Made by a program: the position numbers and the translations under genes. The notes under the pieces were generated by a model. It saw nothing but the letters and a program-made list of their open reading frames with translations, ran no database searches and was not told where the DNA came from. 52,828 nucleotides of DNA from Rhodospirillaceae bacterium (GTDB taxonomy: Bacteria > Pseudomonadota > Alphaproteobacteria > UBA8366): NCBI GenBank assembly GCA_002715005.1, contig PAXN01000015.1, positions 1 through 52,828 of the forward strand, read 5' to 3'. Below, piece after piece: positions 11,812 to 51,963 of this stretch (its first letter is position 1; each line of letters starts with the position of its first letter).

Positions 11812-13344
11812 TTAAAGCGGAATGTTGTCATGCTTTTTGAGAGGATTTTCTAGCTGTTTATTTGCCAACATTTTCAGTCCACGGCATATTCGAAAGCGGG
11901 TATTTCGTGGCATAATCACATCATCAATAAATCCATACCGCCCGGCCACAAAAGGATTAGAGAATTTCTCACGATATTTGTCTGTCCTTTCCTTAATTTT
12001 GGCCTCATCACCTATATCTTGTCGAAAAATAATTTCCACCGCGCCTTGCGGCCCCATGACGGCAATTTCCGCACTTGGCCAAGCATAGTTCAAGTCACCC
12101 CGAAGATGCTTCGAGCTCATCACGTCATACGCTCCACCATAAGCTTTCCGAGTTATAACCGTCACCTTTGGAACAGTTGCTTCTGCATAGGCAAAAAGTA
12201 ACTTAGCACCGTGTTTAATGATCCCTCCATATTCCTGTGCAGTGCCAGGTAAAAACCCAGGAACGTCAACGAACGTTAAAATCGGAATATTGAAACAATC
12301 GCAAAACCGAACAAACCGTGCTGCTTTGCGTGACGACTCAATATCGAGACAACCAGCTAACCCCATAGGCTGATTAGCAACTATCCCAACAGTAGTGCCA
12401 GCCATACGTGCAAACCCAGTTATTATGTTACGCGCAAACTCTGATTGCGTTTCGAAAAAATCACCTTCATCAACAACCTTTAAAATCAATTCTTGCATAT
12501 CGTAAGGCTGAAGAGCATCAACGGGGACGAGTGTATCGAGTGAGATTTCCATCCTTTCAATAGGGTCGTTTGTTTCTCTAAGCGGCGGTTTCTCCCTATT
12601 TGATAATGGTAGGAAATTCATAAATCGGCGAACTTGAACCAAAGCCTCCACATCATTTTCAAATGCTAAATCAGCAACACCGGATTTAACAGTATGCGTC
12701 GATGCACCGCCTAACCTCTCAGCGCTGACTTCCTCATGGGTAACCGTTTTCACCACGTCTGGACCCGTTACAAACATGTATGATGTATCTTTAACCATGA
12801 ATATAAAATCCGTCATGGCTGGAGAGTAAACCGCACCTCCGGCGCATGGACCCATAATTACAGAAATTTGCGGAATCACTCCCGATGCCAAGACATTTCG
12901 TTGAAAAACATCGGCATAGCCTGCGAGTGACGCCACTCCCTCTTGAATGCGGGCTCCGCCAGAATCATTAAGGCCGATAACCGGCGCCCCTACTTTCATT
13001 GCTTGATCCATGACCTTACAAATTTTTCGCGCATGCGCAGCTGATAGTGAGCCACCAAAAACAGTAAAATCCTGACTAAACACAAATACCAAACGCCCGT
13101 TAATACTGCCGTGGCCAGTAACCACCCCATCCCCCGGTATTTTTTGGCTCGCCATATCAAAGTCTTGGCAATCATGTTCAACAAACATATCCCATTCTTC
13201 GAACGAGCCTTCGTCAAGCAGCACATCAATACGTTCCCGTGCAGTCAACTTCCCTTTAGAGTGTTGTGTATCAGTGCGCCTTTTACCACCACCCATTTGC
13301 GCCCGGTTGCGCATTTGATCGAGTTTCTGGATAATATCGCTCAT
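11812..13344 (-). CDS. pccB: Propionyl-CoA carboxylase beta subunit
   Basis: This carboxyltransferase subunit of 510 aa moves CO2 from carboxybiotin (PccA) to propionyl-CoA. Two crotonase-like halves are visible. The N-half has [45 protein letters not shown] and [17 protein letters not shown]. The C-half has [33 protein letters not shown], and a tail with FANPF-like [17 protein letters not shown]. The residues distinguish it from the MCC beta homologue at 1-575. It is the first gene of a tight run (pccB - 2TM - ltaE), with pccA further downstream, and follows the ATP12 gene by 28 bp. Confidence 0.95.
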
Positions 13345-13372
13345 ATCCCTTTCCCCCTCATCCTCATACCAT

Positions 13373-14077
13373 CTACGGATCTATCAGCCCAAGAAATCTG
13401 GCAGCATTACGGATTTCGTGCGCTAGTCCTGCCAACCGCGCAGTAACATCTTCATCTTCGCCCCACTGCTCTATTTGAAAAATTTCATCTAACTGGCTCG
13501 CTGCGATACAGGATTCCACGTCGACTTCATCTTCCGCTAAAGCCAGCGCCAACGCTAGAGAACCACAAGACGCAGTGACTACACTCAGCCCTGTTAAGAA
13601 GAAATCATCACGTTGACTTAGGATCTTATTAAAAATACCCATACTGCTCTGCGGCTGCTCCATCGGCATGATACCAGATGTGACCACGAGTGGTGCGTCG
13701 AAATTAGATTCTACCCAGTCCAAAATTGGTTGCCACACTTGATGCTGCCGCTCCTTCAGCGCGGCCGGCTCTTCTGCTCGGTAGCATAAGAGATCTGTCG
13801 ACGCATAACTAACCAAGTTTTCAACCACGAGTTCTCGATTTTTAGGAGTTTGATCTATTGCAGTTGTAGCTAATTGCATAGTCGGCATAGACTCCGCATT
13901 AATTATGACGCCCTGAGCTTGCCATTCGTCACAAATCAAATACGCAAGCGACCGAGTGGGAACCACTAAGTCAGACTTAGCTGGTGTCTTGACCGGATGG
14001 TCGTCAAGAACAACGCCAAAGCCATTGCCAAACGCAATTATACCCACCTCTTCATAGAAGCGTTTCATTACCGCCAT
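13373..14077 (-). CDS. ATP12-family F1F0-ATPase assembly chaperone
   Basis: The 234-aa protein matches the ATP12 family, which in mitochondria and alphaproteobacteria assists assembly of the F1-ATPase alpha subunit. Characteristic stretches are [47 protein letters not shown] and [12 protein letters not shown]. The C-terminal half contains [18 protein letters not shown]. Met4 (14068) is an alternative start. A hairpin with a T-run at 14113-14142 separates it from the upstream HAD gene, so it probably begins a unit leading into pccB. ATP12 genes often sit beside rluC and HAD genes in alphaproteobacteria, which supports the class assignment. Confidence 0.9.
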
Positions 14078-14112
14078 TTGTTAGGAAATCCGATATGATC
14101 AAACATCACTAC

Positions 14113-14142
14113 AAAAAAGGTAGCGCCCATTTGCGGGGCACC
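14113..14142 (-). terminator. Probable intrinsic terminator after the HAD gene
   Basis: On the minus strand, GGTGCCC ... GGGC(GCT)ACC forms a GC-rich hairpin with a 3-base bulge, followed by six T residues. It lies 59 bp downstream of the HAD phosphatase stop and upstream of the ATP12 gene, so it plausibly ends the crcB-rluC-HAD transcript. Confidence 0.55.
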
Positions 14143-14200
14143 GTACTAATCAAAGAGGTCAATGAAAACACGATAATTGCAAGGATGTTCCGGAACCACT

Positions 14201-14881
14201 TCAAGGTACCCTCCATAAGGATTGCAAAGCGGGCTGCAACTCCGAACAGTCGGTGACAATAATACTCGCTCCGGCTTCCTTTAACTCGCCAGTCTCATGG
14301 TATCCCCAGCTAACGCCAATAGCAGTTGCTGCCGCTTCTTTTGCCATTATCATATCGTATATTGTATCACCAATCATTGCTGTCTTTTCAGCTATCGTGT
14401 GGGCCTCATCAATCGCATCAAGAAGAATATCTGGGTTAGGTTTACCCGGGCCGTCGTCAGCGGTTTTCAAGACGCAAAATAATTCGCTCAAGCTATGACG
14501 TTCCAGGGTACGTAAGAGGCCTCTCCGGGACTTACCAGTTGCTATACCAAGTGAGAACCCCAGGCTGACCAAGTCATTTAGGCAGTCTCGAATACCCGGA
14601 TAAAGCGGCTCTGTATACTCTGGGTCATCTCGAAATCGACTAAACGAATCAATATATGCCTGAACCAAATGGTTGACCTCGACTTCACAATCAAGTGGTA
14701 TCAGTTTTTGCACGGCATCTTCTAACTTTAACCCAACTATTCGCCGGATTGAAGTTGCAGGTGGTGGCTCAAGATCGTGACTCCGCCAAGCTTCGCACAT
14801 TGCTGTTACAATATTATGCCCGCTATCTATAAGGGTGCCGTCGCAGTCAAATATGACCAAATACGAGTTCGAGGTGTTCAT
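14201..14881 (-). CDS. HAD-superfamily phosphatase (phosphoglycolate phosphatase-like)
   Basis: This is a cytoplasmic haloacid-dehalogenase family hydrolase of 226 aa. Motif I is FDCDGTLIDSG (nucleophile Asp12, acid/base Asp14). Motif II is in ATGKSRRGLL, the motif III Lys is in GKPNPDILL, and motif IV is MIGDTIYDMIMAKEA. The cap between motifs I and II is helical, as in Gph/PgmB-type enzymes. It begins 10 bp after rluC. This rluC-HAD pairing is conserved in alphaproteobacteria, but the substrate has not to my knowledge been established. Calls as phosphoglycolate phosphatase are by similarity. Confidence 0.88.
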   Translation of the reverse strand: MNTSNSYLVIFDCDGTLIDSGHNIVTAMCEAWRSHDLEPPPATSIRRIVGLKLEDAVQKLIPLDCEVEVNHLVQAYIDSFSRFRDDPEYTEPLYPGIRDCLNDLVSLGFSLGIATGKSRRGLLRTLERHSLSELFCVLKTADDGPGKPNPDILLDAIDEAHTIAEKTAMIGDTIYDMIMAKEAAATAIGVSWGYHETGELKEAGASIIVTDCSELQPALQSLWRVP

Positions 14882-14891
14882 ATTTATCCGG

Positions 14892-15872
14892 CTACTCGTC
14901 GCTAAATGCGTCTTCGATTGCTATATTTCTATTGAGCCCAAAAAACTCCCAACTTGCCAACATATGGTCGGTCAACGGGGCCGTAACGCTAAATTCGTGA
15001 GCTTCCGTGGGATGTAAGAACTCAATTCGACGCGCATGAAGGTGCATTCTTCTAGCAATATCTACTCCGTCTAGAAAAGCCTCCTCACCACCATACTTCC
15101 CATCTCCTATAATAGGGTGACCTATAGCAGCAAGATGCGCACGCAATTGATGGGTTCGGCCTGTTTCGGGAAACAGGACCAGCCAGGAACATTCTCGAGC
15201 AGCATTCTCAATAACTGCATAACGGGTCGTAGCATGTTTACCGTTGCGCTCATCTACCAAAACCCGCTCCTGTCCGCGCCTACCGGCTTTAATCAACGGC
15301 AGGTCTATTTTACCTTGGCGTGGACTGGGAACTCCCGCAACTAGCGCCCAATATTGTTTTCGGATCTCGCTCCGCTGAAATTGTTTTCCCAAATGTTCTG
15401 CTACTCGGGCCGAGCGAGCTACTAATAGTACCCCGCTGGTATCCTTATCGAGCCGATGTACTAATTTTGGACGATCCATACCAGCACTAACCAAGCCAGC
15501 CAGCAGTCCGTCCAAATGGCGTTTTGTGCCGCTACCGCCCTGAACCGCTAACCCAGCAGGTTTATTTAACGCAAAAAGGGATTCATCTTTAAAAAGAACC
15601 AAATTTTGAACGAATGAACAATCATCTTCGCTTACGGTTTGATACAGTCGAGATCCAGTTCTTTCTGCATCCAATGGCGGAATTCTGATGACCTGACCTA
15701 GTCGGAGACGGCTGCTACCTTTTGCCCTTTTGCCGTCCACTCTCACTTGGCCGGTACGTAACAGTTTTTGCAGGCGACCATGAGAAAGCCCGTCATAATG
15801 ACGCTGAAACCAACGATCTAGACGCAGGTCATTATCTTCGACGCCAACTTCACATTGAGAAACACCGCTCAT
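14892..15872 (-). CDS. rluC: Ribosomal large-subunit pseudouridine synthase C
   Basis: This RluA-family enzyme isomerises uridines in 23S rRNA (in E. coli 955, 2504 and 2580). The 326-aa protein has an N-terminal S4-like RNA-binding domain (LRLDRWFQRHY, SHGRLQKLLRTGQVRVDG) and a catalytic domain with LNKPAGLAVQGG. The catalytic Asp142 lies in LVHRLDKDTSGVLLVA, and PETGRTHQLRAHLAAIGHPI follows. It overlaps crcB by 4 bp (ATGA) and precedes the HAD gene by 10 bp. RluC is favoured over RluA or RluD by the S4 domain and by the gene context. Confidence 0.93.
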   Translation of the reverse strand: MSGVSQCEVGVEDNDLRLDRWFQRHYDGLSHGRLQKLLRTGQVRVDGKRAKGSSRLRLGQVIRIPPLDAERTGSRLYQTVSEDDCSFVQNLVLFKDESLFALNKPAGLAVQGGSGTKRHLDGLLAGLVSAGMDRPKLVHRLDKDTSGVLLVARSARVAEHLGKQFQRSEIRKQYWALVAGVPSPRQGKIDLPLIKAGRRGQERVLVDERNGKHATTRYAVIENAARECSWLVLFPETGRTHQLRAHLAAIGHPIIGDGKYGGEEAFLDGVDIARRMHLHARRIEFLHPTEAHEFSVTAPLTDHMLASWEFFGLNRNIAIEDAFSDE

Positions 15873-39967: not shown

Positions 39968-40043
39968 GCCGTCGTAGCTCAGTTGGTAGAGCAGGGGTTT
40001 TGTAAACCTCAGGTCCGCGGTTCGAGTCCGTGCGACGGCACCA
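39968..40043 (+). tRNA. tRNA-Thr (TGT)
   Basis: Acceptor GCCGTCG / CGACGGC, D-arm TAGCTCAGTTGGTAGAGC, anticodon stem with loop TTTGTAA (anticodon TGT), T-arm GGTTCGAGTCC, discriminator A and an encoded CCA (40041-40043) are visible. It stands alone on the plus strand at the left border of the AT-rich gap that precedes the selenium module. Confidence 0.95.
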
Positions 40044-40345
40044 TTATCTCACAAATATGATTAATTTTTTTATTTGTATAATTTTTTATATGTCTAAAAA
40101 TAATTAGTTACATTCAAGTAAATAATTTTTTTATATTTAAAATAGTGGAATTTTTATTTATAAATTGCAATTTCATATTTCATATTTAAAATCCAATTTC
40201 GGTGTTGCAAGCATGCTGTAAATTTAACTAAAAATCTCCTAGTTTGCAGTAAAGAGTAATTAGACTCGCCCCGCGATCGTTTAGCAAACTTATCTCTAAG
40301 TATCTATCCAGGTTGAAAAAAATGAAACATACAGTGAGTCATATA
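40044..40345. other. AT-rich intergenic stretch upstream of the selenium module
   Basis: About 300 bases, the first 200 dominated by runs of A and T and clearly richer in AT than the surroundings. No gene is visible. AGCATGCT near 40211-40218 is a perfect 8-bp palindrome. The stretch must hold the transporter operon promoter, but I cannot pick a convincing -35/-10 pair. Confidence 0.6.
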
Positions 40346-41200
40346 ATGAAAAAATTAATTGCTGCGGTAACTCTGTTGGTTGGACTATCCGTTTCTGCAC
40401 AAGCCACCGATTTCACATTTACCGCTATTCCGGATCAAGATGAAAGCGCTCTAAAGGCTCGTTTCACTAAAATCGCAGTCTATCTTGAAAAACAACTCGG
40501 CGTGAAAGTAAATTATATTCCGGTCAAATCTTATTCTGCCGCCGTTACGGCCTTCCGCAATAACCAAGTACAATTGGCATGGTTTGGTGGCCTATCTGGG
40601 GTAAGGGCACGCCTACTCGTAAAAGGATCAGAAGCTATTGCCCAGGGTTTCGAAGACCCAAACTTTGAAACTTATTTTATTGCCCACAAATCGAGCGGCC
40701 TGAAGCCAAGCAAGAAATTCCCTAAAGGTATAGCCGGTAAGACCTTTACCTTCGGCTCCAAAGGCTCTACGTCAGGCCGCCTGATGCCGGAATTTCACAT
40801 TCGTAAGGCTTTTGGAAAAACACCAGAGAAAGTTTTCAAGCGTGTCGGCTTCAGCGGAAGCCATTCGCGTACCGTCGCCCTAGTCAATGGCGGCCAATAC
40901 GAGGTCGGCGCGACGAATTTTAAGGTTTATAAAAAAGCACTCAAGGCTGGCAAGCTCGACCCGAAGAAAGTAACACTCATCTGGAAGACGCCGGGTTATC
41001 CTGATTACAACTGGACTATCCGGGGCGATGTCGAAAAACAATTTGGCAAGGGCTTCAAGATCAAGGTTCAAAAAGCACTGCTCGACATGAAGGATCCGGA
41101 CTTACTCAAATCCTTCCCTCGCAAAAGCTTCATCAAGGCCACCAACAAAGACTACCAGCCGATCCTGGACACAGCCAGGACACTTGGTCTGGTTGACTAA
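40346..41200 (+). CDS. PhnD-like periplasmic binding protein, putative selenium-oxyanion ABC transporter
   Basis: This substrate-binding protein belongs to the phosphate/phosphonate-type (PhnD-like) family. A signal peptide (MKKLIAAVTLLVGLSVSA then QA) exports it. The mature protein has FTAIPDQDESALKARF, YIPVKSYSAAVTAFRNNQVQ, LAWFGGLSGVRARLLV and GSKGSTSGRLMPEFHIRKAF, the conserved ligand-binding regions. Database members of this subfamily found beside selD are named putative selenate transporters, and here too the operon continues into selD. I chose the ATG at 40346 (GTGAG upstream, 284 aa); starts at 40322 (ATG) or 40313 (TTG) are possible. Its stop overlaps the ATPase start by one base. 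Selenate, selenite or another oxyanion cannot be distinguished. Confidence 0.8.
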   Translation: MKKLIAAVTLLVGLSVSAQATDFTFTAIPDQDESALKARFTKIAVYLEKQLGVKVNYIPVKSYSAAVTAFRNNQVQLAWFGGLSGVRARLLVKGSEAIAQGFEDPNFETYFIAHKSSGLKPSKKFPKGIAGKTFTFGSKGSTSGRLMPEFHIRKAFGKTPEKVFKRVGFSGSHSRTVALVNGGQYEVGATNFKVYKKALKAGKLDPKKVTLIWKTPGYPDYNWTIRGDVEKQFGKGFKIKVQKALLDMKDPDLLKSFPRKSFIKATNKDYQPILDTARTLGLVD

Positions 41201-41859
41201 TGGCATTATTTGACCTGAGCGAAGCGTGTGCTTCTTATAACGGAAAGCAAGTGCTCAATAGCGTCTCGCTCAGCGTCGAAGCCGGCGAGAAAATCGCCCT
41301 GGTGGGTCGGAGCGGCGCCGGCAAGTCCACGCTCCTCAAGCTTCTTTATGACCGCCACGATACCGAGTGCGCACTCGTTCCTCAAAATCTGGGTTTGGTA
41401 AGCACACTCTCTGTTTTTCATAATGTTTTTATGGGTCGGCTCCATAAAAATTCGACCTGGTACAATCTTGCCAATCTGGTCCGCCCATTCACGGCAGAGG
41501 CGGAACAAGTTCGCACTATTTTAAGCAAAATTCGGCTCGAGGAAAAGTTTTCGACACCGGTTGGTGAACTTTCGGGTGGACAACAGCAACGAACCGGTGT
41601 GGCGCGTGCACTTTACCAAGGGTGCTCAGTGTTTCTAGGCGACGAGCCAGTCTCGGCGGTCGATGAACACCAGGCACGTGGTGTGATGCAAAGCATCACC
41701 GAGAACCATGACACGGTTATTCTCGCGATGCATGATGTGCAATTAGCATTGCAATTCTGTACGCGCATCATTGGCATATCTGATGGCAAAATTGCATTTG
41801 ACCGTCCGGTCGACCGCATGAAATCGACAGACCTCAATGGCCTATATGGCACCTCATAA
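41200..41859 (+). CDS. ABC transporter ATPase, putative selenium-oxyanion transporter
   Basis: This is the cytoplasmic ATPase of the adjacent importer, 219 aa. Walker A is GRSGAGKST (36-44), the Q-loop is in VPQNLGLVSTLSV, the signature is LSGGQQQR, Walker B is VFLGDEPVSAVD with the catalytic Glu, and the switch His is in LAMHDVQLAL. It resembles PhnC-type ATPases but is shorter. The start codon overlaps the binding-protein stop by one base, and the end overlaps the permease start by 23 bp, so the three are coupled. Confidence 0.9.
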   Translation: MALFDLSEACASYNGKQVLNSVSLSVEAGEKIALVGRSGAGKSTLLKLLYDRHDTECALVPQNLGLVSTLSVFHNVFMGRLHKNSTWYNLANLVRPFTAEAEQVRTILSKIRLEEKFSTPVGELSGGQQQRTGVARALYQGCSVFLGDEPVSAVDEHQARGVMQSITENHDTVILAMHDVQLALQFCTRIIGISDGKIAFDRPVDRMKSTDLNGLYGTS

Positions 41860-43357
41860 TCCCGCACCGCTCGTACCGGAATCACCGTTAGTTCGCACAA
41901 GCCTTTGGTTTTTATTTATAGCGATCAGCTGTTTATTTTTTGCCGATATCGAAATCACGACAAACGATCCCTGGCCGGAGATGAAACGCCTTGGTGCTGG
42001 TTTGATCACTCCGGATTTCACAAAGTGGGAGCAGATATTAGAGGCACTTCTCTATACAATCTGCTTCGCTATTCTCGGTGTATCTTTAGCAAATATCTCG
42101 GGTTTTTTGCTAGCGGTTGTTTTTCATTATCGCTTTGTGCGCATCGGCTGCGCATTTATCCGCGCCGTCCATGAATTATTTTGGGCACTTATTTTCCTAC
42201 AAATATTTGGCCTAACTGCTGTGACAGGTGTCCTTGCTATTGCCATTCCTTATGCGGGGATTTGTGCCAAGGTCTACGCGGAAATATTAGAAGAAGCGGA
42301 CCCCTCGCCACTCCAGGCTGTACCCAGCGGTACATCGGTCATCTCTCTGTTTTTCTATGCCCGCCTCCCTGGAGTATGGGCGCATTTCAAAACCTACTCT
42401 TTATACAGATTGGAATGTGGACTGCGATCAAGCGCAGTACTGGGATTTATCGGCTTACCAACGATCGGTTTTTATTTAGAAACTGCCTACAAAGAAGGGC
42501 ATTACTCGGACCTATCTGCTTTATTGCTCGTGTTTTATGTCGTCATCTCGACAATTCGGAAATGGATGCGAAGTGAATTGATACCAGTTTATATAATTAC
42601 TTCTATTTTTCTGCTCCCCGAAAGTGGTCCCATGAGTTGGTCTAACGCATGGCGGTTTTTCACCGACGACATTATGCCACTTCCAATCCGAACTGCCGAC
42701 GCTGCCTCGGTGCCAGTGCTCATCGAAACCTGGTATTGGTTCCAAAATTTATTTATCTCCGAAGCACTGCCCGGAATTTTTAACACCGTAATTCTTACTA
42801 TGATTGCTTTAACTAGCACTGGTCTTCTGACCTTGCTGTTTTTCCCCTTAATCTCACCGCTGTTTTTCCGTCCCGTTGGTCGTACGATAGGTCATATCTT
42901 CCTCGTCGTAGTCCTTTCCACGCCAGAGTATGTGCTAGCCTTTATTCTTCTTCAGCTTTGGGGGCCTTCTATGTTTCCAGCGATTGTGGCTCTTTCCCTA
43001 CACAATGCCGGAATCATAGGCCATTTAATCGGCCGCTTTACTGAGCAACTGCAACTACGCCCAGACAGCGCAAGGGGAGTTAATTTATATTTGTTTGAGG
43101 CATTGCCGCGTGTCTATCGCCAGTTCCTCGCCTTCATATTCTATCGTTGGGAAGTGATCTTCCGAGAAACCGCCATCCTCGGCATACTTGGTATCCATAC
43201 GTTAGGCTTTTATGTGGATTCTGCATTTGCCGATATTCGGTTTGACCGAGCAATGGTTTTAATTCTTATTACCGCATTGTTGAATATCGGCTTAGATATG
43301 ATTTCACGACGTATCCGCACAACCTTGCGGCTCCAAACATCACTTGATGCTAGGTAG
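41837..43357 (+). CDS. Double-length ABC permease (PhnE-PhnE-like fusion)
   Basis: The 506-aa membrane protein consists of two homologous permease halves, roughly residues 20-250 and 285-500, where PhnE-type permeases usually have a single half of 250-280 residues. The first half shows VYAEILEEADPSPLQAVPSG, with SSAVLGFIGLPTIGFYLETA after it. The second shows GRFTEQLQLRPDSARGVNLY, with ETAILGILGIHTLGFYVDSA after it. The two latter segments align closely, so the gene is an internal duplication and fusion that would make a pseudo-heterodimer with one polypeptide. It overlaps the ATPase by 23 bp and precedes the SelD fusion by 3 bp. An ATG at 41846 is an alternative start. Confidence 0.85.
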   Translation: MAYMAPHNPAPLVPESPLVRTSLWFLFIAISCLFFADIEITTNDPWPEMKRLGAGLITPDFTKWEQILEALLYTICFAILGVSLANISGFLLAVVFHYRFVRIGCAFIRAVHELFWALIFLQIFGLTAVTGVLAIAIPYAGICAKVYAEILEEADPSPLQAVPSGTSVISLFFYARLPGVWAHFKTYSLYRLECGLRSSAVLGFIGLPTIGFYLETAYKEGHYSDLSALLLVFYVVISTIRKWMRSELIPVYIITSIFLLPESGPMSWSNAWRFFTDDIMPLPIRTADAASVPVLIETWYWFQNLFISEALPGIFNTVILTMIALTSTGLLTLLFFPLISPLFFRPVGRTIGHIFLVVVLSTPEYVLAFILLQLWGPSMFPAIVALSLHNAGIIGHLIGRFTEQLQLRPDSARGVNLYLFEALPRVYRQFLAFIFYRWEVIFRETAILGILGIHTLGFYVDSAFADIRFDRAMVLILITALLNIGLDMISRRIRTTLRLQTSLDAR

Positions 43358-43360
43358 ATT

Positions 43361-45625
43361 ATGGAAAATTCCGATACCCCGATTTTAAAAGATTTAGTGC
43401 TGATAGGCGGCGGACATTCGCACGTAACTGTTTTGAAGAAATTCGGGATGAAGCCACTCCCTGGCGTGCGCTTGACACTAATTTGCCGCGACATGGAGGC
43501 ACCATATTCTGGTATGCTACCCGGCTTCATCGCGGGCCATTACACCTTCGCGGAAGCCCATATTGATTTAGGCCCTCTGGCGCGATTTGCCAATGCACGC
43601 TTTTATTTGGATGAAGTGACAGGCATTGATCCGGAAAAAAAACAGGTAGTCTGTAGAAATCGCCCGCCTGTGCAGTACGACCTTCTTTCGATCAATATAG
43701 GTTCTGCCCCTAATACCAAAATTGTCAAAGGCGCGACAGAGAACGTAGTGCCAGTGAAACCCATCGATGGCTTTGTCGATCATTGGAATAAACTTATTGA
43801 ACGTGTCGTCGCTGCAAAAGGAAAAACTAAAATTGGCGTCGTTGGCGGCGGAGCAGGCGGCGTTGAAATAATCCTCGCCATTCAGTTCCGCCTCCGCCAA
43901 ATTCTTAAAAGAGCGGGCATCGAAAAGGTTGAACCGAGCTATAACCTTTTCACCAACAATGACATACTAATCGGTCACAATCGGAAAGTGCGGGATAAGT
44001 ACCGAAGCGTTTTACAGGAACGAGGCGTCAAACTGTACCTCCATCATGAAGTTCAAACCGTAGACCCTAGCCGTCTGCGCTGTGTGAACGGAGAAAGTTT
44101 CGAACTCGATGAAATATTGTGGGTCACCATGGCCAGCGCCCAAGAATGGCTCGAAAAAGGTGGCTTATCAGTTTCAGAGGGTGGCTTCGTCAAAGTAAAT
44201 GACACATTAGAATCCGTATCGCATCCGGGAATTTTTGCCGCCGGCGATATCGCAGACATGATAAACCATCCGCGTCCAAAATCAGGCGTCTTCGCCGTGC
44301 GACAAGGCCCACCGCTGGAACGCAATCTGCGAAGAGCTCTCTTAGGGAAGTCTTTAAAACGTTTTGAGCCACAGCAACAGTTCTTAAGCCTAATCTCAAC
44401 CGGAGATAAATATGCGGTGGCATCGCGTTCCAATTGGACCGCTGAAGGCAAATTAATTTGGCGGTGGAAGGATTGGATCGACCGGCGGTTTATCCGAAAG
44501 TTCAGCGATCTGCCTGATATGGGTGATGAAGAGAAGGCTGATATAGCCAAGGGCCTAGCTAATGAAGATGTAATCAAAGAAATATCCGCTATCGCCATGC
44601 GTTGCGGCGGGTGTGGGGCCAAGGTGGGCGCGACGGTCTTACAAAGCGCTCTATCGCAATTAGCTCCGATTCCCCGCAAAGATGTTTTAATTGGACTGCA
44701 TGAGCCCGATGATGCCGCAGTCGTAGAAGTGCCAGACGGCAAAGTAATGGTACATACCGTCGATGCGTTTCGCGCCTTTATCGACGATCCCTATATTTTT
44801 GGCCAAATCGCAGCAAACCACGCCTTAGGGGACATCTTCGCGATGGGAGGCGAGCCGCAGACGGCGCTGTCCATCGTCACACTGCCTTTCGGTCTAGAAA
44901 ATAAGGTTGAAGATGATTTATCGCAATTGATGGCAGGCGCCATGAAAGTACTAAACGAAACGGGTACAGCATTGGTTGGTGGCCATACTAGTGAGGGTTC
45001 CGAAATGTCGTTGGGCTTTGCCATTAATGGCCTTGTCGATAGAGCACGTATTCTCCGCAAAGGTGGCATGAAAGCGGGTGATAAAATTATTCTCACAAAA
45101 CCAATCGGCACCGGTACACTATTCGCTGCCGATATGCGTCATAAAGCTGAGGGCAACTGGATTGATGCCGCGCTAAAAGGAATGATCCAATCAAACAAAC
45201 AGGGCGCGGACATTCTTTATGCAAATGGCGCAACAGCCTGCACAGACCTGACGGGCTTTGGCCTTCTTGGCCACCTCGTCGAAATGATAAAGCCGTCCGG
45301 CGTTGATGTAGATTTGAATATAAATGCTATTCCCTTATTGGCGGGAGCGTTAGAGCTAGTAACAGAAGGTATTTTCAGCTCTCTGCAGCCCCAAAATGTT
45401 CGACTCAGACGGGCCATTCATGACGTGGACTCAGCGGCGCAAGACCCCCGTTATCCGTTGATTTTTGACCCACAAACAGCCGGTGGTCTTATAGCCAGCA
45501 TTCCTGATAAAAAAGCCGATATAACGGTTACTGAGCTAAAAAAGGCTGGTTATAAATGTACGGCAATTATCGGTAGTGTTCTCCCAAATAGTGGGCGTTT
45601 AGAGCCTATTACTATTTCGTCATAG
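43361..45625 (+). CDS. selD: NDH-2-like flavoprotein fused to selenophosphate synthetase
   Basis: This is a two-domain protein of 754 aa. Residues 1 to about 385 form a two-dinucleotide-binding-domain flavoprotein like type II NADH dehydrogenases: GGGHSH (16-21) binds FAD, IGVVGGGAGGVEI binds NAD(P)H, and VSHPGIFAAGDIADM closes the FAD site. Residues from about 395 form SelD, which makes selenophosphate from selenide and ATP: MRCGGCGAKVG with the catalytic pair Cys418 and Lys421, DDAAVVEVPDG, ANHALGDIFAMGGEPQTAL and GGHTSEGSEMSLG. The active site uses Cys, not selenocysteine. The fusion plausibly couples a redox step on a selenium species to its activation. It is the fourth gene of the transporter operon, and its stop abuts that of the convergent senB. 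Confidence 0.92.
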   Translation: MENSDTPILKDLVLIGGGHSHVTVLKKFGMKPLPGVRLTLICRDMEAPYSGMLPGFIAGHYTFAEAHIDLGPLARFANARFYLDEVTGIDPEKKQVVCRNRPPVQYDLLSINIGSAPNTKIVKGATENVVPVKPIDGFVDHWNKLIERVVAAKGKTKIGVVGGGAGGVEIILAIQFRLRQILKRAGIEKVEPSYNLFTNNDILIGHNRKVRDKYRSVLQERGVKLYLHHEVQTVDPSRLRCVNGESFELDEILWVTMASAQEWLEKGGLSVSEGGFVKVNDTLESVSHPGIFAAGDIADMINHPRPKSGVFAVRQGPPLERNLRRALLGKSLKRFEPQQQFLSLISTGDKYAVASRSNWTAEGKLIWRWKDWIDRRFIRKFSDLPDMGDEEKADIAKGLANEDVIKEISAIAMRCGGCGAKVGATVLQSALSQLAPIPRKDVLIGLHEPDDAAVVEVPDGKVMVHTVDAFRAFIDDPYIFGQIAANHALGDIFAMGGEPQTALSIVTLPFGLENKVEDDLSQLMAGAMKVLNETGTALVGGHTSEGSEMSLGFAINGLVDRARILRKGGMKAGDKIILTKPIGTGTLFAADMRHKAEGNWIDAALKGMIQSNKQGADILYANGATACTDLTGFGLLGHLVEMIKPSGVDVDLNINAIPLLAGALELVTEGIFSSLQPQNVRLRRAIHDVDSAAQDPRYPLIFDPQTAGGLIASIPDKKADITVTELKKAGYKCTAIIGSVLPNSGRLEPITISS

Positions 45626-46579
45626 TTATAAAACCGCATCCAATAATACCCTCCATTCGGCGCTTTCACGTTCCAGCGTAAATTGGGAAAGCTTAGCGGC
45701 GCATTGTTGCTCAAGCCTCTTCAAGAAACTCGAATCGACTTCGGCTCGTACTAACAGGGCGCCGAGTGCTTGGGTATCTTTCACCGGATAATAACCGTCA
45801 TAGCTTTCGCCAAGTAATCCTTTTGCCCCCTCAATATCAGATGCGATAATTGGAACACCGGCGGCAACCGCTTCCGAAATCACATTCGCGCCACCTTCCA
45901 TGATTGAACTTAATACCATCAGGTGGGTCTTGGCGAATTCGCGACGCACGCGCCAGCCAGGAACCTCCCCCATCCATTGGTATCGAGGATTTCGCACCAT
46001 TTCTTTTTCGGCTTTTTCCGCCCAATCTGCACTATGCGCCTTCCCCAAATGGATAACTCTAATTTTAGAATCCGGTGGCATGTTGCGTACTGCCATCGCT
46101 GTACGAAGCGGGTCTTTCTCCTTACGCAAATGTCCGACCACGCAAATATCAAAATGCCGAACAGACGGTTTACGCGCCATGCTCAAGGGTGATGCGGACT
46201 GATGCACTACATGCAGTTTGGAAGTAAACTCAGCCGGGATGGAACGGTGCACTTGTTCATGAAGGCAGGCCAGTCCGTCAGCAATCTCCATGCACCGGTA
46301 CGTTTTCTGAGGATGGCTTTTTTGGAAGCGGTAAATATCCGTTCCCGCCAGAAGTACAATCAACGGCCGTTTCGGATAGCGCTCCCTAAATTGCAATGCG
46401 GATTGTGCGCTACGCCAGGCATGGATAGCGACCATCATATCTGCCGGACGACCGTCCCATTCCACGTCGACCCTAACTTGATGGCCGAGTTCGCGCAGAA
46501 TACGCGCCCATCGAACAGCCGTCGTTCGATTACCGTTCTTGGCTAACTTTGCTGCAGGTGTGATAAGAATAATTTTCAT
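45626..46579 (-). CDS. senB: SenB-like selenosugar synthase (glycosyltransferase family 4 type)
   Basis: This is a GT-B fold protein of 317 aa. It has NGNRTTAVRWARILRELGHQ at the N-terminus, AIHAWRSAQSALQFRERYP, LLAGTDIYRFQ, CVVGHLRKEKDPLRTAM, and the donor-site loop SSIMEGGANVISEAVAAGVP. This pattern matches the glycosyltransferases of selenoneine loci, where SenB joins selenophosphate to UDP-GlcNAc to give a selenosugar. The assignment rests on remembered family features plus the location between selD and the SenA-like gene. It is on the opposite strand: stop codons abut selD with no gap, and only 27 bp separate its start from the divergent senA. Confidence 0.85.
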   Translation of the reverse strand: MKIILITPAAKLAKNGNRTTAVRWARILRELGHQVRVDVEWDGRPADMMVAIHAWRSAQSALQFRERYPKRPLIVLLAGTDIYRFQKSHPQKTYRCMEIADGLACLHEQVHRSIPAEFTSKLHVVHQSASPLSMARKPSVRHFDICVVGHLRKEKDPLRTAMAVRNMPPDSKIRVIHLGKAHSADWAEKAEKEMVRNPRYQWMGEVPGWRVRREFAKTHLMVLSSIMEGGANVISEAVAAGVPIIASDIEGAKGLLGESYDGYYPVKDTQALGALLVRAEVDSSFLKRLEQQCAAKLSQFTLERESAEWRVLLDAVL

Positions 46580-46606: not shown

Positions 46607-47917
46607 ATGACACAACCAGTTGCTGCATCTTATTTAGAAGAAATTATGAAGGACGCCCATACTCGGACCCTGGAACTAGTAGCTGGGCTGGATGAAGATC
46701 AATTAATGGGGCCTCGTCTACAAATCGTAAATCCGTTACGCTGGGAAATTGGACATGTAGCGTGGTTCTACGAAAAATTTATTCTGCGCGATCTCTACGA
46801 CCAAGCTCCGTACCACGCACTAGGCGATGATATTTACGATTCAATTGAAATTCCCCATGAGGTGCGTTGGGACCTGCCATTGCTCCGCATGAACGAAACA
46901 CTCGCCTATATCGAGACCGTCCTAGAACGCTGTATTTGTCGGCTCGGCGACGGGGATGCGAGCGAGGTAGACAGCTACATGTATCAGTTTTCCACATTCC
47001 ACGAAGACATGCACACGGAGGCCTATACCTATTCACGCCAAACGCTGGGCTATCCGAAACCCACCTTTACAAATGCCGCAGTCCCGGATGATGCAGAAGC
47101 TGGTGCCCACCCAGGAGACGTCACAATACCAGGAGGAACATTTTTGCTCGGCTCAACAAAAGATGAAGCCATACTCTTTGATAACGAGAAATGGATCTAT
47201 CCGGTTCCAGTCAAACCGTTCGAAATCGCTAAAGCACCGGTCACCAACGCAGAGTTCCAACACTTTGTTGACGCAAAAGGATATGAAATTCGGGAGTTTT
47301 GGGACGAAGATGGATGGGACTGGTGTAAACGAGAAGACGCCGTTCATCCGGTCTATTGGCAGCCTACTGGCGAAGGTGATTGGTCAGTAAAAAGGTTCGA
47401 CACCATTGAAGACCTAAAGCCACACCAACCGATAATCCACGTGAATTGGTATGAAGCAACTGCATTTTGCCGTTGGGCAAAACGTCGATTACCCGCAGAA
47501 ATTGAGTGGGAGGTAGCTGCACTAGGCGAGCCCAATACAGATAGGACAATGCTTAGCGAAAAAAAACGTGACACTCCTTGGCATGCCACCTCCGGGAACT
47601 GCATACACGCCAACCTAGACGGCAGCGCTCTTGGCGTTATCGATGTCGCTGCTTTTCCACAGAGCGATAGCGCTTTTGGGTGTCGCCAGATGCTGGGCAA
47701 TATATGGGAGTGGACATCGACGGCATTTAGCCCCTATCCGGGTTTCTCGCCGGATGCTTATAAAGATTATTCACAACCGGTATTCTACGAGACTAAAGTC
47801 CTACGTGGAGGCGCTTGGGCGACGCGAAGCAGGGTGGTCAACGGACGCTACCGCAACTTTTTCACCCCCGATAGACGCGATGTCCTGGCCGGGTTTCGGA
47901 CCTGTGTATTGCCATAA
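46607..47917 (+). CDS. senA: SenA-like (EgtB-family) non-haem iron C-Se bond-forming enzyme
   Basis: This 436-aa protein has the EgtB architecture. An N-terminal DinB-like domain carries the iron ligands His50 (WEIGHVAWFYEKF), His132 and His136 (FHEDMHTEAYTY). A C-terminal formylglycine-generating-enzyme-type domain contains GGTFLLGSTKDE, NAEFQHFVDAKGYE, RLPAEIEWEVAAL, NIWEWTSTAFSPYPGF and RNFFTPDRRDVLAGFRT. EgtB makes the C-S bond of ergothioneine; SenA uses the selenosugar from SenB and hercynine to form the C-Se bond of selenoneine. Context (SenB, SelD, transporter) favours SenA, but sequence alone cannot exclude an ergothioneine EgtB. No EgtD, which makes hercynine, is in the window. Confidence 0.85.
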   Translation: MTQPVAASYLEEIMKDAHTRTLELVAGLDEDQLMGPRLQIVNPLRWEIGHVAWFYEKFILRDLYDQAPYHALGDDIYDSIEIPHEVRWDLPLLRMNETLAYIETVLERCICRLGDGDASEVDSYMYQFSTFHEDMHTEAYTYSRQTLGYPKPTFTNAAVPDDAEAGAHPGDVTIPGGTFLLGSTKDEAILFDNEKWIYPVPVKPFEIAKAPVTNAEFQHFVDAKGYEIREFWDEDGWDWCKREDAVHPVYWQPTGEGDWSVKRFDTIEDLKPHQPIIHVNWYEATAFCRWAKRRLPAEIEWEVAALGEPNTDRTMLSEKKRDTPWHATSGNCIHANLDGSALGVIDVAAFPQSDSAFGCRQMLGNIWEWTSTAFSPYPGFSPDAYKDYSQPVFYETKVLRGGAWATRSRVVNGRYRNFFTPDRRDVLAGFRTCVLP

Positions 47918-50300: not shown

Positions 50301-50633
50301 ATGACAGAAACCTGTAAAGAAGAATTTGTTGATGCGGCAACCGCCAACAGTTGGTTGGAATCCGGAGACGCTTTGCTAATAGATGTTCGCGAGGCCCACG
50401 AACATAAATTGGCCCGAATAGCGACTGCCAACCTAAACCCGCTTTCGTCATTCGACCCTAGGGGGATACCCATAAAAGATGACAAGAAAATTATATTTCA
50501 TTGCGCCAGCGGCGTCCGTTGCGGCATTGCTGCTAAGAAGATGATGGCTTCTGGGCATGAGGGTACGATTTATCGTTTGCAGGGCGGTATTCAAGCATGG
50601 CATGAAGCCGGTTACCCAATCCTATTTGAGTAG
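50301..50633 (+). CDS. Rhodanese-domain sulfurtransferase
   Basis: This single-domain rhodanese of 110 aa contains LLIDVREAHEHKLARI and the active-site loop FHCASGVRCGIAAKKM with nucleophile Cys68, then YRLQGGIQAWHEAGYP. GGAGG seven bases before the ATG gives a strong start. Rhodaneses carry persulfide, and some can carry perselenide. It lacks the P-loop domain of the tRNA 2-selenouridine synthase SelU, so it is not that enzyme. It is the first of three plus-strand genes (rhodanese, quinone oxidoreductase, TusA-like). Confidence 0.9.
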   Translation: MTETCKEEFVDAATANSWLESGDALLIDVREAHEHKLARIATANLNPLSSFDPRGIPIKDDKKIIFHCASGVRCGIAAKKMMASGHEGTIYRLQGGIQAWHEAGYPILFE

Positions 50634-51717: not shown

Positions 51718-51963
51718 GTGTCTTCCAAAGGCTCTCTATTGGTCGACGCATCCGGGCTTAAATGTCCTATGCCGGTATTAAAAATACAAAAAGCACTTCG
51801 CAGTCTTGGTCAAGGGGATCGATTAACGCTTATTGCAACGGATCCCATGAGCTACATTGACGTGCGTCACTTCTGCGAGACTAACAATCATATACTAATA
51901 TCCGCGGAAGAGGACAGCGACACCTTTACCTATAAAATTAGAAAGGGACCTAAGCGATTATAA
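51718..51963 (+). CDS. TusA-family sulfur carrier protein
   Basis: This 81-aa protein has the TusA/SirA/YedF signature GLKCPMPVLKIQKAL, with Cys16 as the sulfur-carrying residue, and the fold continues with GDRLTLIATDPMSYIDVRHFC. It uses a GTG start at 51718, 8 bp after the quinone oxidoreductase. TusA proteins relay persulfide to many acceptors, including tRNA thiolation and molybdenum cofactor synthesis. Relatives such as YedF occur in selenium metabolism. A rhodanese two genes upstream could be its donor. Confidence 0.9.
   Translation: MSSKGSLLVDASGLKCPMPVLKIQKALRSLGQGDRLTLIATDPMSYIDVRHFCETNNHILISAEEDSDTFTYKIRKGPKRL

Follow-up and report, generated by a model that had tools for sequence, protein, structure and literature searches.

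The window, by which we mean the whole 52,828-nucleotide stretch analysed (contig PAXN01000015.1 of the Rhodospirillaceae bacterium assembly GCA_002715005.1), carries a transporter operon that runs into a flavoprotein-SelD fusion gene, followed by two genes of selenoneine synthesis. The features are given here with coordinates, strand and family-model scores.

40313..41200, + strand: substrate-binding protein; TIGR04553 ("putative selenate"), 364 bits (cut-off 250)
41200..41859, + strand: PhnC-type ATPase; 165 bits, under the PhnC equivalog cut-off of 266
41837..43357, + strand: PhnE-type permease, 506 aa; 217.3 bits (cut-off 216.7), in two matched stretches
43361..45625, + strand: flavoprotein-SelD fusion, predicted to act as SenC; one open frame of 754 aa from the ATG at 43361 to the TAG at 45625
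43391..44503, + strand: NDH-2-fold flavin domain of the fusion, residues 11-381; TIGR03169 ("Nterm_to_SelD"), 501 bits (cut-off 310)
44597..45514, + strand: SelD domain of the fusion, residues 413-718; TIGR00476, 305.5 bits (cut-off 125)
44603..44623, + strand: C415-x-x-C418-x-x-K421 loop, low-confidence and probably mobile (alignment and AlphaFold2)
45626..46579, - strand: SenB, selenosugar synthase; TIGR04348, 401 bits (cut-off 300)
46607..47917, + strand: SenA, selenoneine synthase; NF041186, 475 bits (cut-off 420)

The genes are tightly packed. Those of the binding protein, whose real start is probably an ATG shortly 3' of 40313, and of the ATPase overlap at stop and start, those of the ATPase and permease overlap by 23 bases, and a gap of 3 bases separates the permease from the fusion. 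The stops of the fusion and of SenB, on the opposite strand, touch, and the starts of SenB and SenA lie 27 bases apart. Its predicted gene content marks the locus as a selenoneine cluster, with the fusion in the place of SenC, and this one stretch of DNA most likely encodes the import, reduction, activation and use of selenium. Several smaller observations can be set beside this arrangement. A tRNA-Thr (39968-40043) lies ~270 bases 5' of the operon, and within ~7 kb of the cluster there are a rhodanese-domain protein (50301-50633) and a TusA-like protein (51718-51963; 67 bits, cut-off 78); a connection of SirA/TusA-like proteins with SelD has been published (available part of PMC2432076). SenB runs against the fusion transcript, and overlapping antisense transcripts may couple the two. 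Of 36 loci, window included (one contig counted twice), 34 have SenA and SenB in head-to-head orientation, often 23-60 bases apart. At gathering thresholds an Rfam scan of the locus returned tRNAs and no other known RNA element, and scans of the locus for promoters and terminators gave numbers equal to those of shuffled sequences. A horizontal island was rejected, as GC is ~0.45-0.50 across the region with no step in composition.

The source genome is a draft of 3.66 Mb in 64 contigs (completeness 94.4, contamination 5.5). In this 94%-complete draft the fusion is the only SelD over the cut-off. SelA is present with a tRNA-Sec on the same 19-kb stretch, EgtD for hercynine supply is found on contig C27 (TIGR03438, 401.5 bits, cut-off 290.9), and no SelU was found in the draft. 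Because the draft yielded no other SelD, the fusion probably supplies SelA for selenocysteine, and, if no second SelD was missed in the draft, there is a good likelihood that it feeds both selenoneine and Sec.

The fusion is real, complete and conserved, and the fusion type itself is already known. The original prediction had described both domains as complete with Cys418 and Lys421 intact, and this is borne out: the positions are correct, the catalytic Cys and Lys of the SelD half are spaced CxxK (C418, K421), and G16, G18 and H19 together with G162 and G164 are kept in 59/59 fusions. The fusion had thus been recognized correctly, but C415, which forms a CxxC with C418, and the senB and senA genes were absent from that description. 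A chance or misassembled fusion is ruled out by the family scores and by recurrence elsewhere, the same frame being found in many unlinked genomes and the same gene order in many others besides this one. The fusion also matches TIGR04369 ("fusion_not_SelD") moderately, on which basis the C-terminal half could be a relative of that family and no selenophosphate synthetase. Its score of 493.6 is below the TIGR04369 cut-off of 700, whereas the SelD cut-off is exceeded with the catalytic residues intact, and the genome has SelA and tRNA-Sec with no SelD found other than the fusion. We regard this alternative as next to impossible, and a dead SelD or a TIGR04369 identity was rejected on the scores. 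The identity of the fusion as SelD/SenC, as predicted from these comparisons, is in our view nearly certain.

The AlphaFold2 model of the fusion (pLDDT 89, pTM 0.90) has pLDDT <50 only in the first three residues, in residues 409-412 and in residues 414-424, the last of which hold the CxxC. The best structural match of the flavin domain is NDH-2 (Z 43.0, YjlD model 9a63), and the match to 4nwz (Z 41.7, rmsd 2.3 over 372 residues) places in it the two-dinucleotide-binding-domain fold; several sulfide:quinone oxidoreductase (SQR) structures gave Z 34-36, and NDH-2 is closest also by sequence alignment. The NDH-2 quinone motif is AQxAxQ, and SQR carries a conserved redox Cys pair by the flavin. 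Judged by the NDH-2 alignment and by conservation in 59 fusions, AQxAxQ is absent from the flavin domain and replaced by GVFAVR at 309-314, and the 59 aligned fusions have no conserved Cys column in residues 1-400 and hence no such pair. The domain thus resembles type II NADH dehydrogenase (YjlD, 4nwz) in fold, with ~370 residues aligned, and differs from it in the replaced quinone motif and in the C-terminal SelD. As far as sequence and model can tell, the fold is that of an NAD(P)H-FAD enzyme with an acceptor side unlike that of NDH-2 or SQR. Fold (the Z scores of 43.0 and 34-36) and sequence kinship would speak for an NDH-2/SQR-like exchange between NAD(P)H or selenide and the membrane quinone, with SelD fused by an accident of operon structure, but the change of AQxAxQ to GVFAVR and the lack of the conserved flavin-side Cys that SQR needs make this very unlikely. 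A quinone enzyme is accordingly disfavoured on motif and Cys evidence, and the quinone-linked variant of the electron supply that had been offered at the outset is weakened.

Stand-alone relatives of the flavin domain adjoin other reductase or transport genes, and the domain would therefore be an enzyme in its own right. A protein in which a VTT (DedA-like) membrane domain is joined to a mercuric-reductase-like flavoprotein is nearby in 8 of 10 distinct loci of these relatives (L089, L099, L100, L101, L102, L127, whose contig has the same length as that of L208, L198 and L219), and ArsS and a phosphonate-type transporter are also present in two of the eight.

As the flavin domain lacks a conserved Cys, the nearest candidate acceptor for its electrons is the CxxC in the SelD half, or else selenium bound there. 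The fusions on which this rests were found by the flavin-domain model only, and the SelD motif played no part in their selection: among the class's 385 genomes, stretches around 67 TIGR03169 places outside the window were fetched, 60 of them scoring above the cut-off and 7 below it, and the alignment comprises 59 of 68 sequences, window included, with 7 stand-alone flavoproteins and 2 truncated sequences left out. Every one of the 59 full-length fusions keeps C415, C418 and K421. A further 80 named loci form a second collection, gathered in part by the pattern MRCGGCGA and hence biased for the CxxC motif; in this motif-biased set both Cys are invariant in the 56 aligned rows, window included. 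CxxCxxK was found in a fixed stretch in 72 of 77 rows, and the other five have longer linkers and fall outside that stretch. None of 14 stand-alone SelDs has the Cys at -3 (GxGCGCK in 13, GGCAGK in one), and the available part of Zhang 2008 (PMC2398784) gives CxxC in all Ndh-SelD fusions and in <5% of single-domain SelDs. On a tree of the SelD domain a single branch (1 change, support 94) separates the fused from the stand-alone sequences. A single switch from CxC to CxxC may account for the pattern, in which case 59 of 59 stands for one evolutionary event and not for 59.

The same pattern, a CxxC combined with no conserved Cys in the flavin domain, would also be expected if the flavin domain kept the SelD thiols reduced by repairing a C415-C418 disulfide in aerobic cells and left selenium untouched, and the available text of PMC2398784 describes Ndh-SelD fusions as common in surface-ocean data. 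Stand-alone SelDs, however, do without a flavin domain, and stand-alone relatives of the flavin domain occur away from SelD; we consider thiol repair quite unlikely. Alternatively, the flavin domain could reduce free selenite or selenodiglutathione by FAD in an anion pocket of its own and pass on selenide by proximity, with the CxxC serving the ordinary SelD reaction only. Such a pocket would fit the invariant K133, K307 and R314 and the near-invariant K370-type basic residues of the flavin domain, the oxyanion transporter that adjoins the fusion, and those three among the ten distinct loci of stand-alone relatives (L101, L102, L127) that have a phosphonate-type transporter near and no fused SelD. 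It leaves unexplained the extra Cys that every fused SelD has and none of the 14 stand-alone SelDs has, and we hold it to be unlikely, if worth weighing.

As far as we are aware, there is a gap in the understanding of how selenium is reduced in vivo to the selenide that SelD uses. Our best explanation of the locus, to which we give a probability of roughly 55%, is that the fusion is the SenC of the selenoneine cluster with its own attached reductase. We think it probable that the flavin domain reduces selenium for SelD, and possible, at somewhat less than even odds, that the electrons pass through the CxxC. We propose that the ABC transporter would import a selenium oxyanion, most likely selenite, and that cell thiols would convert it to a thiol-bound selenium species, a step that is established thiol chemistry. 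The flavin domain, judged by its fold, would draw electrons from NAD(P)H and pass them to FAD, and from there, with the electron path, selenium species and cofactor preference that we infer, to selenium held on C415/C418 in the flexible interdomain loop. Selenide would then be set free in the SelD active site, which would phosphorylate it using ATP, as expected from the family and the intact residues. SenB and SenA, also going by their families, would make the selenosugar and join it to hercynine, supplied by EgtD, to give selenoneine. Counting against the best explanation is a published in-vitro SenC assay that used Na2Se and DTT with no flavoprotein listed in the available part of the paper (PMC10891094).

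That a reduction step feeds the kinase, as originally predicted, is still the best reading but not a new one, the idea of a flavoprotein reducing selenium for SelD having been printed in 2008 by Zhang et al. Flavoprotein-SelD fusions themselves were in print in 2005, 2008 and 2015, and the fusion and the reductant idea can be found in the available portions of PMC1273633, PMC2398784, PMC2432076 and PMC4561486. The Ndh-SelD fusions of Zhang 2008 (PMC2398784) and Mariotti 2015 (PMC4561486), as far as the accessible text of these papers goes, share with the window protein the domain order, a Cys-type SelD and the CxxC in all members; those papers predate the selenoneine pathway, whereas here the fusion is a member of a sen cluster and the only SelD found. 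The selenoneine pathway has been described (PMC9814287; PMC10891094 and PMC11929427, both available in part). Like the Variovorax paradoxus sen cluster (SenA, SenB, SenC), the locus has SenA and SenB over their cut-offs, a SelD beside them and EgtD in the genome. In V. paradoxus, however, SenC is a SelD for which a flavin domain goes unmentioned in the available text (PMC9814287, PMC10891094, PMC11929427), whereas the SenC of the window carries a flavoprotein and is preceded by an ABC transporter. In the open-licence literature we found no publication joining a fused SelD, selenoneine and the transporter. New here are the predicted SenC role of the fusion within a variant selenoneine cluster, the argument from CxxC, absent Cys and absent quinone motif for the electron path, the genome evidence tying the transporter to selenium use, and a testable link to PhnD1. 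The locus offers a candidate importer and a candidate reductase in one compact unit.

A selenium-oxyanion-like transporter had been predicted upstream of the fusion, and that assignment is strengthened by the family score, by co-occurrence and by the pocket residues. TIGR04553 is over its cut-off in 18 of 385 genomes of the class, and the fusion is present in 13 of these 18 genomes against 46 of the 367 others (Fisher p 3.5e-8, kinship uncorrected), the TIGR04553 gene and the fusion being linked in 11 of the 13. Four further TIGR04553 genomes carry a stand-alone SelD whose frame contains a TGA, and G007, a draft of ~810 contigs, has no SelD over the cut-off and a SelA directly after PhnE; a selenium gene is found in 18/18. 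These counts are strong genome evidence that the predicted transporter belongs to selenium use. We found no report in the literature of selenium oxyanion binding by any TIGR04553 member.

The closest solved relatives of the binding protein are picocyanobacterial PhnD1 proteins (7s6g, 2.8e-64; 5lq5, 7.9e-58), with PtxB far behind (3.5e-26). PhnD1 fragments score 333.6 and 297.3 on TIGR04553 (cut-off 250) and ~119 on the PhnD model (cut-off 261). The PhnD1 ligand contacts given in the available part of PMC10284923 (Y44, S124, T125, S126, H156, D203, Y204) correspond to Y74, S152, T153, S154, H184, D231 and Y232 of the window protein, with paper and alignment numbering shifted by 3; in the TIGR04553 family six of the contacts are kept in 37/37 sequences, window included, and the Asp in 31/37. 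The picocyanobacterial PhnDCE proteins (PhnD1; 7s6g, 5lq5) are thus alike in exceeding the TIGR04553 cut-off and in their pocket residues, and unlike in that PhnD1 is assigned to phosphite/phosphate, with its role disputed, whereas the window protein sits among selenium genes. Prochlorococcus PhnD1 prefers phosphite (nanomolar, with reported values of 50-120 nM) to phosphate (micromolar) according to the available part of PMC8786288. The tested Synechococcus strains could not use phosphite as sole phosphorus source, and the affinity was called fortuitous, according to the available part of PMC10284923; its authors conclude that it is a phosphate transporter, and their crystal contained phosphate, which speaks against selenite, and "selen" is absent from the main text of that paper. 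A pocket that prefers XO3 to XO4 would favour selenite rather than selenate, and the real cargo may be selenite. In Prochlorococcus and Synechococcus the selD gene bears an NADH-dehydrogenase-like extension, and ybbB is present as well (PMC1273633, available in part). Reviews of 2022 and 2026 state, in their available parts, that prokaryotes have no known specific transport system of high affinity for selenium. We tentatively suggest, at well below even odds, that the transporter is the missing high-affinity bacterial importer specific for selenite, and that, since its family takes in PhnD1 of Prochlorococcus and marine Synechococcus, the "paradoxical" phosphite/phosphate PhnDCE of picocyanobacteria would in truth import selenite for them and feed a flavoprotein-SelD fusion of this kind. 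The PhnD1 link turns a puzzle of ocean microbiology into a single binding measurement.

TIGR03169 is over its cut-off in 61 of 385 genomes of the class, and SelD in 129 of 398 genomes of a phylum sample, in which fused SelDs score 263-314 bits and nearly all stand-alone ones at least 349 bits. The neighbours across 127 fusion loci, among which a few contigs occur twice, once by G handle and once by name (e.g., L044/L120), are SenB (51), PhnC (38), the substrate-binding protein (37), PhnE (36), SenA (28), EgtD (22), SelU-like (15), SelA (12) and SelB-like (11), the SelU-like and SelB-like labels resting on sequence starts, size and place with no family scan. Because of these neighbours the fusion probably supplies selenophosphate for all three of its uses, depending on the genome. 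The phylum sample has 13 genomes with SenB: six have a fused SelD near it, six a stand-alone one (in one case 5.4 kb from SenB), and one has no SelD nearby; G535 and G729 have an ordinary stand-alone SelD elsewhere and keep the fusion beside SenB. The SelD is therefore unfused in 6 of the 12 genomes with SelD near SenB, and because 4 of these 6 lack a TIGR03169 match over the cut-off, the reductase would be dispensable for selenoneine in general, a point that also counts against our best explanation. SenB adjoins 6 of 28 fused and 6 of 103 other SelDs (Fisher p 0.02, a weak result among related genomes). A stand-alone flavoprotein as a Rosetta stone for SelD proved weak, as only G399 of the 6 genomes has one near the unfused SelD. 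A single "sen clade" of fusions is ruled out by frequent changes of sen context on the SelD-domain tree (19 changes, at least 12 of them forced by starred branches, with some "none" labels being contig ends).

Further contexts of the fusion are of note. A SelU-like (rhodanese-type) protein, so labelled from sequence start and size, is nearby in L042, L043, L046, L049, L053, L056, L063, L066, L069, L076, L084, L087, L090, L098 and L140. Twelve Marinobacter loci (L118, L124, L129, L130, L134, L135, L137, L138, L144, L147, L151, L156) have the fusion, SenB and the transporter with no SenA match within the fetched stretch, and their end point may be a selenosugar or another product. Four more loci (L038, L040, L041 and L111) likewise have SenB but lack a SenA match within what was fetched, and they may make a different selenium metabolite; in L038 and L111 SenB is followed by an amidohydrolase-family gene, the one in L111 being over the NF006689 cut-off. 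In L122 (Halospina; 12281-15765) an OvoA C-terminal family methyltransferase (278 bits, cut-off 170), a SenA-like protein and SenB stand in a row together with the fusion and the transporter, an arrangement resembling an ovoselenol-type cluster (the compound is so named in PMC13188914), and L136 has the same SenA-SenB order.
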